Virus record (IMG/VR): IMGVR_UViG_3300035695_000011
Coordinates: 1-40,086 of that record
Reading direction: 5' to 3' (one strand)
From: a virus
Length of the DNA stretch: 40,086 nt
A program made the translations under genes and the position numbers. Positions within the stretch are counted from its first letter, which is position 1. Each line of letters begins with the position of its first letter. Shown here one piece after another: positions 18,125 through 19,230 of the stretch. Below the pieces are notes generated by a model. It was not told where the DNA came from and ran no database searches. It saw nothing but the letters and a program-made list of their open reading frames with translations.

Positions 18125-18331
18125 ATGGGCATCAAGGAAGACGACTACAATAGATGCTGGCTAATAATCGAGGACGTGGGCAACGTTCCCGTTTCCTATT
18201 GGAATGCGATGCCTCTTCCGGATCACATCAAACTAGCATTAGAAACCATCTCTAAATATGCCTGGAGAGATGTCTCGGCTCAGCAAGCTTTCTGCGATGC
18301 CCATCAGCATTTCGGCGAGATCGATAATTAG
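18125..18331 (+). CDS. small hypothetical protein ahead of the tRNA
   Basis: A 68 aa protein starting MGIKEDDYNRCWLIIEDVG, with GGAG (18111-18114) upstream. An upstream in-frame TTG (18056) would add 23 residues, but it has no ribosome-binding site and overlaps the hairpin. No family is recognised. The final base of its stop codon is the first base of the tRNA, so the two are produced from one transcript. Confidence 0.55.
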   Translation: MGIKEDDYNRCWLIIEDVGNVPVSYWNAMPLPDHIKLALETISKYAWRDVSAQQAFCDAHQHFGEIDN

Positions 18332-18402
18332 GCCCTGTGGTGTAATGGTTAGCACACTTCACTTTCTATGAGAGAGCGTCGGTTCGAATCCGGCCAGGGT
18401 CA
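18331..18402 (+). tRNA. tRNA, probably Glu (UUC)
   Basis: A cloverleaf is readable: acceptor GGCCCTG pairs with CAGGGTC (one G-U); the D arm has GTGT/GCAC and an eight-base loop with GG; the T arm has GTCGG/CCGGC around TTCGAAT; discriminator is A and no CCA is encoded. With standard spacing the anticodon is TTC (18364-18366). T11-A24, T13-G22 and a four-base variable region are features of bacterial tRNA-Glu. The anticodon stem is weak (one mismatch at 27-43, one G-U), base 37 is U where a purine is normal, and a shifted loop would read TCT (Arg). Confidence 0.75.
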
Positions 18403-18405
18403 AAA

Positions 18406-19230
18406 ATGGTATTGAATGGCTTGGATTTATTTAGCGGAATCGGAGGACTTAGTCTCGCACTCAGTGAATGGGTCCGACCAATCGCCTATTGCGAAATCGA
18501 CTCCTACTGTCAAGGAGTGCTCCTGTCTAGACAGTCCGTGGGACATATTTCATCCGCTCCTATCTGGGACGATATACGGACGTTCCCTGACATATTTCAA
18601 CCCGGATTCATTGATATCATCTTCGGCGGATTCCCATGCCAGGACATCAGCGTTGCAGGCAGTGGACAGGGCTTGGCAGGAGAGCGAAGCGGGCTTTTTT
18701 TTGAGATCATTCGACTTGTCCGAGAAATACAGCCACCCTTTATTTTCCTGGAAAACGTCCCGGCAATCAGAACCCGAGGACTTGATACCGTGCTCAAAGA
18801 ATTTGCCAAAGCACGGTATGATTGTCGATGGACGATGCTATCAGCTGCGGATGTCGGAGCTCCCCATAAAAGAGAACGATGGTTTTTGTTGGCAAGACGA
18901 AGACCAGATTCAGCGGAAATTCATTCCCACCCCGATGGCGAACAATCTCCCCAGATCAAAGAAAGCGAAAGAAGTTCACTCGTCCGGTCCGAGATTGGTG
19001 GATTACGTGAGAATGTGGGCCACACCAACAGCAAGGGATTGGAGGGTGGGAAAGAGCAACAATGCGAGGAACTCAAGGCCATTGAGCGAAGTGATTGGTG
19101 GTCAGCTGAGCCCGATGTGGGTAGAGTGGTTAATGGGCTTCCCCATAGGGTGGACAGAATTAGAGGCCTGGGCAATTCCGTGGTTCCTAAGCAGGCGAAA
19201 GAAGCGTTTAAAAGATTAATGGGACTGTAA
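18406..19230 (+). CDS. dcm: DNA C5-cytosine methyltransferase
   Basis: This 274 aa enzyme transfers a methyl group from S-adenosylmethionine to carbon 5 of cytosine. All core motifs are present: I LDLFSGIGG (6-14), IV GGFPCQDIS with catalytic Cys78, VI ENV (116-118), VIII KRERWF (155-160), and IX/X RGLGNSVVP (253-261) with a short C-terminal helix. The target-recognition region between VIII and IX is short, as in compact phage orphan enzymes. No restriction gene is near, so self-protection is likely. The only visible ribosome-binding site (AGGG, 18396-18399) lies in the acceptor arm of the tRNA. A second frame is open through nearly the whole gene (18416-19219). Confidence 0.93.
   Translation: MVLNGLDLFSGIGGLSLALSEWVRPIAYCEIDSYCQGVLLSRQSVGHISSAPIWDDIRTFPDIFQPGFIDIIFGGFPCQDISVAGSGQGLAGERSGLFFEIIRLVREIQPPFIFLENVPAIRTRGLDTVLKEFAKARYDCRWTMLSAADVGAPHKRERWFLLARRRPDSAEIHSHPDGEQSPQIKESERSSLVRSEIGGLRENVGHTNSKGLEGGKEQQCEELKAIERSDWWSAEPDVGRVVNGLPHRVDRIRGLGNSVVPKQAKEAFKRLMGL
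18416..19219 (+). CDS. overprinted protein within dcm, +1 frame
   Basis: A 267-codon frame runs inside the methyltransferase gene without a stop and starts at an ATG directly after a TGA in that frame. Its C-terminal half carries motifs I recall from stand-alone phage proteins found with Dcm: HARTSALQ, SWKTSR, PKHGMIVDGRCYQLR, WATPTARDW, NSRPLSEVIGGQLSP and WVEWLMGFPIGWTELE. The same bases give EPDVGRVVNGLPHRVDRI in the methyltransferase frame, so both products look conserved. Function is unknown. No own ribosome-binding site is evident, so expression would need reinitiation, leaky scanning from 18406, or an internal start. Confidence 0.6.
   Translation: MAWIYLAESEDLVSHSVNGSDQSPIAKSTPTVKECSCLDSPWDIFHPLLSGTIYGRSLTYFNPDSLISSSADSHARTSALQAVDRAWQESEAGFFLRSFDLSEKYSHPLFSWKTSRQSEPEDLIPCSKNLPKHGMIVDGRCYQLRMSELPIKENDGFCWQDEDQIQRKFIPTPMANNLPRSKKAKEVHSSGPRLVDYVRMWATPTARDWRVGKSNNARNSRPLSEVIGGQLSPMWVEWLMGFPIGWTELEAWAIPWFLSRRKKRLKD

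Follow-up and report, generated by a model that had tools for sequence, protein, structure and literature searches.

M.EcoHK31I is a C5-cytosine methyltransferase whose small chain, a protein of about 176 aa, is encoded inside the gene for its large chain in another reading frame. M.AquI and M.EcoHK31I (YGGCCR) are established two-polypeptide members of this enzyme class: in M.AquI the conserved motifs are divided between two chains, and in M.EcoHK31I the large chain carries motifs I-VIII and X, with the predicted recognition domain also assigned to it, and the small chain carries motif IX alone (PMC3404938). In Streptococcus thermophilus phages, totally overlapping pairs of C5-methyltransferase ORFs have been described, an S. 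pneumoniae phage and Tn5252 being cited as earlier examples (PMC5601072), so that overlapping two-frame C5-methyltransferases are already published and the kind is known. For a nearly coextensive layout with tandem starts, such as the one presented here, we found no description in a limited open-access literature, which is weak evidence.

The window, by which we mean the whole stretch of 40,086 nucleotides analysed here, is a tailed-phage record with genes for a major head protein, portal and terminase. On its + strand, flanked by genes on the - strand, lies an ORF of 274 codons (18406-19230) that matches PF00145 (E=5e-41, aa 4-195) and is taken as the large subunit of a C5-cytosine methyltransferase, here called alpha. 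The +1 frame of the same DNA holds a second ORF, beta, of 267 codons from ATG to stop (18416-19219, + strand), which matches phrog_1008 (E=4e-19); the third frame has 20 stops across the stretch where beta is open. A preliminary description had reported a +1 frame open for 267 codons inside a complete methyltransferase gene, which our analysis confirms: all four motifs that it quoted for the second frame are located in beta, and the methyltransferase segment that it quoted, EPDVGRVVNGLPHRVDRI, is found in alpha. The two ORFs share a start region (18396-18418, + strand) comprising a Shine-Dalgarno-like AGGG at 18396-18399, the alpha ATG at 18406 (with TTG at 18412, + strand, as a possible alternative) and the beta ATG at 18416. 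A tRNA-Arg (TCT) gene (18331-18402) ends 3 bases before the alpha ATG, so near that the AGGG lies inside it, and processing of this tRNA could compete with translation of the locus; among 44 relatives scanned, one had any tRNA nearby, and there it was not adjacent. A promoter scan upstream of the locus gave no consensus match.

We propose that alpha and beta are the two chains of an obligate two-subunit C5-cytosine methyltransferase of the M.EcoHK31I kind, both made from the same DNA, and place the probability of this reading at roughly 0.78; the earlier suggestion that the two products work together is likewise judged probable. Motifs I-VIII of alpha would form the core for SAM binding and catalysis, and alpha would also supply the helix of motif X, with a disordered linker in place of the target-recognition domain and motif IX of ordinary enzymes. 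Beta would fill this gap with a variable, presumably target-recognising region and a block resembling motif IX, and would add an N-terminal domain. One ribosome-binding site would serve two start codons separated by a few bases, ribosomes using either, such that one message would yield both subunits, and the assembled enzyme would methylate cytosines, presumably in phage DNA as a protection against host restriction. What the analysis shows is that both frames are conserved and selected across the family, that a beta start is conserved and that alpha is without recognition domain and motif IX; from there we infer beta translation, subunit assembly, activity, target and purpose.

Alpha contains motifs I-VIII and X and is without the recognition domain and motif IX. 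Motifs I, IV (PCQ), VI (ENV), VIII and X of the PF00145 core are all present, and F9, G11, P77-C78, E116-N117, R158 and G256-N257 are invariant in 51 alphas. In hhalign comparisons with ordinary enzymes, alpha aligned over I-VIII and X only, with a gap between VIII and X, and neither recognition domain nor motif IX was found within its chain; the motif X region itself (RVDRIRGLGNSVVPK, frame 0, 19147-19191, + strand) aligned to ordinary motif X at E=0.002. The stretch between VIII and X varies among relatives and is predicted to be disordered, and in the AlphaFold2 model of alpha (mean pLDDT 80) the core is confident and most of residues 188-243 score below 50; about 168 columns of the model match M.HhaI and M.HaeIII. 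Counting against the part of the two-subunit model that puts recognition on beta is the placement of the predicted recognition domain of M.EcoHK31I in its large chain (PMC3404938).

The content of beta is harder to read from known proteins. Searches of beta against Pfam and PDB sequences gave no match, and AlphaFold2 modelled beta alone with low confidence (pLDDT 58). Its in-genome matches to phrog_1008, a profile matched by 79 of 80 betas, span 18611-19072 and 19097-19162, the first of them starting at 18611, where homology to short-beta relatives also begins. The most constrained part of beta, residues 229-249 (GQLSPMWVEWLMGFPIGWTEL, 19100-19162, + strand), is a motif-IX-like block whose end is overlapped by the alpha motif X region; along the DNA this beta block, LSPMWVEWLMGFPIGW, directly precedes motif X. 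The block alone gave no significant match to ordinary motif IX by hhalign or by motif matrix. In phiBT1-like betas, however, block and motif X stand in one chain and both fall in register with ordinary enzymes (E=2e-4), and a comparison with phrog_116 also supports this IX and X register. We read motif IX as carried by beta, and beta is presumably the bearer of the recognition region as well, position and variability being the sole basis for the latter. The resulting DNA order (I-VIII, followed by IX in +1 and by X in frame 0) is that of an ordinary enzyme and would also suit programmed frameshifting from frame 0 to +1 and back to 0, yielding a single complete enzyme. This we regard as very improbable: two shifts would be required, and beta has its own conserved start and an open frame that reaches back well beyond any place where a shift would be useful.

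Much of the score of any +1-frame profile match is forced by alpha, and such matches were dropped as sole proof of homology. Since similarity in the second frame can be forced in this way, we rely on tests that hold alpha fixed. When the alpha protein and codon usage are kept and synonymous codons shuffled, the beta frame should contain 7.4 stops; in 20,000 permutations of alpha codons it was never stop-free (minimum 2), so a chance ORF was set aside, and chance does not explain the open beta frame of the window. Among 38 non-redundant members found through alpha alone, 49 stops are seen in the +1 frame where 223 ± 11 would be expected, nearly all of those seen at codons 0-2 or the 3' end, and the +2 frame of the same members has 539 against 508 expected. 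Over most of the gene, third bases at unchanged alpha residues are conserved beyond what shuffling predicts, with a peak at beta 223-242 (z=37); at beta 66-82 and 168-197 the 38-member set shows no such excess.

Substitutions between close relatives agree. In 22 close pairs, changes silent in alpha that alter beta reach 0.33 times the rate of changes silent in both frames (95% CI 0.25-0.44), compared with 0.90 (0.68-1.19) for the same ratio in flanking control ORFs, and alpha-silent changes that would stop beta number 5 against 33 expected (controls: 57 against 55 for changes of this type). Within these pairs, alpha is relaxed and beta tighter in the last third of the gene, and the opposite holds in the first two thirds. 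Redundancy, pair-distance and region cut-offs were each used at one setting. Both frames are thus conserved and under purifying selection across the family, which the preliminary description had proposed to test. Because the 22 pairs, which are independent and mix long and short beta forms, exclude the window itself, we infer selection on its own copy of beta only from the family; the nearest relative to the window beta among the loci listed is about 45% identical in beta. One might suppose that the openness and apparent conservation of the +1 frame merely reflect a conserved alpha, given that synonymous shuffles of alpha still reach 181 bits on the beta profile, but the real window sequence scores 340 bits, about 10 sd above those shuffles, ordinary methyltransferases have no comparable open frame, and the tests with alpha fixed reject such an artefact, which leaves it scarcely credible.

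The start of beta is conserved in the group to which the window belongs: among 86 wide-overlap relatives, 80 carry ATG or GTG at precisely the same position, in the examples listed mostly 4-13 bases 3' of the chosen alpha start. Part of this 86-member set was found via a pattern containing the beta start, and loci ascertained through alpha agree. The alpha Asn codon at that position is AAT in 71 cases and AAC in 2 (471:575 elsewhere; p=2e-22). Six of the 86 are missing the tandem start, and the locus closest to the window by beta among those listed (L002) has a stop at beta codon 7. In a second group, with short beta, the start lies inside alpha at about codon 54, and a Shine-Dalgarno match is found at this internal start in 66% of cases versus 18% at random positions. 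The window beta might likewise start inside alpha as part of a two-subunit enzyme, for instance at the beta-frame TTG at residue 66 (18611-18613, + strand, with a weak GGA upstream), giving a protein of about 202 aa, with the first 65 codons open for other reasons. Distant relatives that start internally and have stops before about beta residue 56-66 speak for this, as does weak constraint in some N-terminal stretches. We nevertheless think it rather unlikely for the window, in whose group the tandem start is strongly conserved; beta stops are also avoided over the first 68 codons (1 seen, 11.5 expected), and the alpha-ascertained set has no stops there.

A search with beta gave, as its best 80, viral loci in every one of which a methyltransferase gene carries beta, always offset by +1. 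Since beta peptide patterns could bias such a set, the search was repeated with alpha only, and the +1 frame over alpha matched beta in all of the best 80 loci. Two distant betas used as queries added 98 further loci, all +1 overlaps and none stand-alone. Searches with the window beta and these two (best 80 loci each) yielded no stand-alone beta, and the beta N-terminal domain is seen only overprinted on methyltransferase genes. The stand-alone family suggested in the preliminary description is therefore not borne out, beta being always on a methyltransferase gene at +1 in the loci screened, and the idea that the second frame is a separate gene copied into register was considered, found unsupported and set aside. 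That description had listed, as grounds for abandoning it, no homologues outside methyltransferase genes, stops in relatives and unreduced synonymous variation: the first is what we find, but stops are avoided and synonymous variation is reduced. In the beta-bearing methyltransferase family, overlaps of this kind are not rare.

Layouts were tabulated by script over the loci of each stage. Bacterial genomes and a Leptospira plasmid carry members of the family as well. In 99 Clostridia genomes, the strong beta matches lie over genes in which the PF00145 match runs to about 165-195; full-length ordinary enzymes match beta weakly, with stops interrupting, and ordinary methyltransferases have no comparable open +1 frame. 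The Clostridium porci genome G003 has 11 PF00145 matches in which ordinary and beta-type are mixed (loci L095, L197, L201, L204, L206 and L208-L214). In the phiBT1-like group the overlap of alpha and beta is only partial and motif X lies on beta. Some depositors have given beta its own CDS; in most annotated relatives examined, alpha alone is annotated. A few members have one frame or both disrupted (L016, L082, L105, L152/L153): in phage Ochi17 (L082:2133-2892) a single indel appears to break both frames, the fragments being annotated as two methyltransferases, and in L152 and L153 (1989-2847) a single indel likewise appears to disrupt the two frames together. At L041:1792-2574 an in-frame HNH-like insertion with cysteine pairs appears to interrupt alpha, reminiscent of the phage-methylase insertions in PMC11855218. 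In phiBT1 (L084:2408-3337) an unannotated 310-codon beta ORF lies between gp11 and gp9.1, the latter annotated as a methylase that is possibly inactive; the split enzyme of this phage may be intact.

A different layout is found in MM1-like phages, which have a complete methyltransferase; in 60 of 80 loci both IX and X are in frame. Its +1 frame has 11 stops against 120 expected over codons 45-185 and shows no avoidance outside them, and in phage MM1, whose complete, monomeric methyltransferase lies at L352:7480-8637, the +1 ORF14 over these codons looks selected, with stop avoidance across 18 non-redundant relatives. The MM1-like ORF somewhat resembles the beta N-terminal domain beyond what alpha forces, with a mean z of 2.5 in 14 related loci compared with 0.4 in 8 ordinary enzymes, and may represent either an earlier stage or a case that arose independently. 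The keeping of a +1 ORF on complete methyltransferases also counts against the two-subunit model, and beta-like proteins may therefore have another role. Beta could be translated yet stay outside the catalytic complex as a regulator, chaperone or specificity factor, as the stop avoidance in MM1-like phages, whose methyltransferase is complete, would suggest. We hold this to be improbable for the window's family, in which alpha itself is without motif IX and recognition domain, and phiBT1-like betas hold motif X too, so that parts of the enzyme sit on beta there.

Taking the two-subunit enzyme as the preferred reading, a tentative and on balance doubtful history is that a +1 ORF was first overprinted on a complete core and that a later frame-shifting indel captured the recognition domain and motif IX. 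If so, the early +1 ORF was kept for its own function, still visible in MM1-like phages, the ancestral frame along the gene would read 0, +1, 0, and the outcome would be two near-equal proteins on one DNA with one ribosome-binding site. It is unusual for a long overlap on one strand to encode two proteins that are both conserved parts of an enzyme, and annotation commonly leaves one of the two frames out; if the two-subunit reading is true, a second subunit is hidden in many phage 'dcm' genes, including phiBT1 gp9.1. The family offers a natural comparison of two proteins evolving under one sequence, and of three ways of starting a second subunit: a tandem start, an internal ribosome-binding site and a partly separate gene.

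Set beside known systems, beta belongs to a family already annotated in public phages as phrog_1008 ('DNA methyltransferase'), a profile of 329 positions that also covers motif-X-bearing betas and whose name is silent on overprinting. The S. thermophilus 5093-group phages, MM1 and Tn5252 share with the window a stretch of DNA that holds two conserved, overlapping ORFs in different frames (PMC5601072). In the S. pneumoniae phage MM1 the second ORF is also in +1, but the large ORF there encodes a complete enzyme that has IX and X itself, and the ORF in +1, nested and 141 aa long (phrog_16143), is not a coextensive bearer of motif IX. The split of M.AquI is shared by the phiBT1-like relatives, with IX and X on beta; in the window, by contrast, motif X is on alpha. 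M.EcoHK31I is like the window in two respects: alpha has the same set of motifs as its large chain, I-VIII and X, and the second chain is encoded on the DNA of the first in another frame. It differs in that its recognition domain is placed in the large chain, none being detectable in the window alpha, and in that its small chain has about 176 aa, the window beta being nearly coextensive with alpha.
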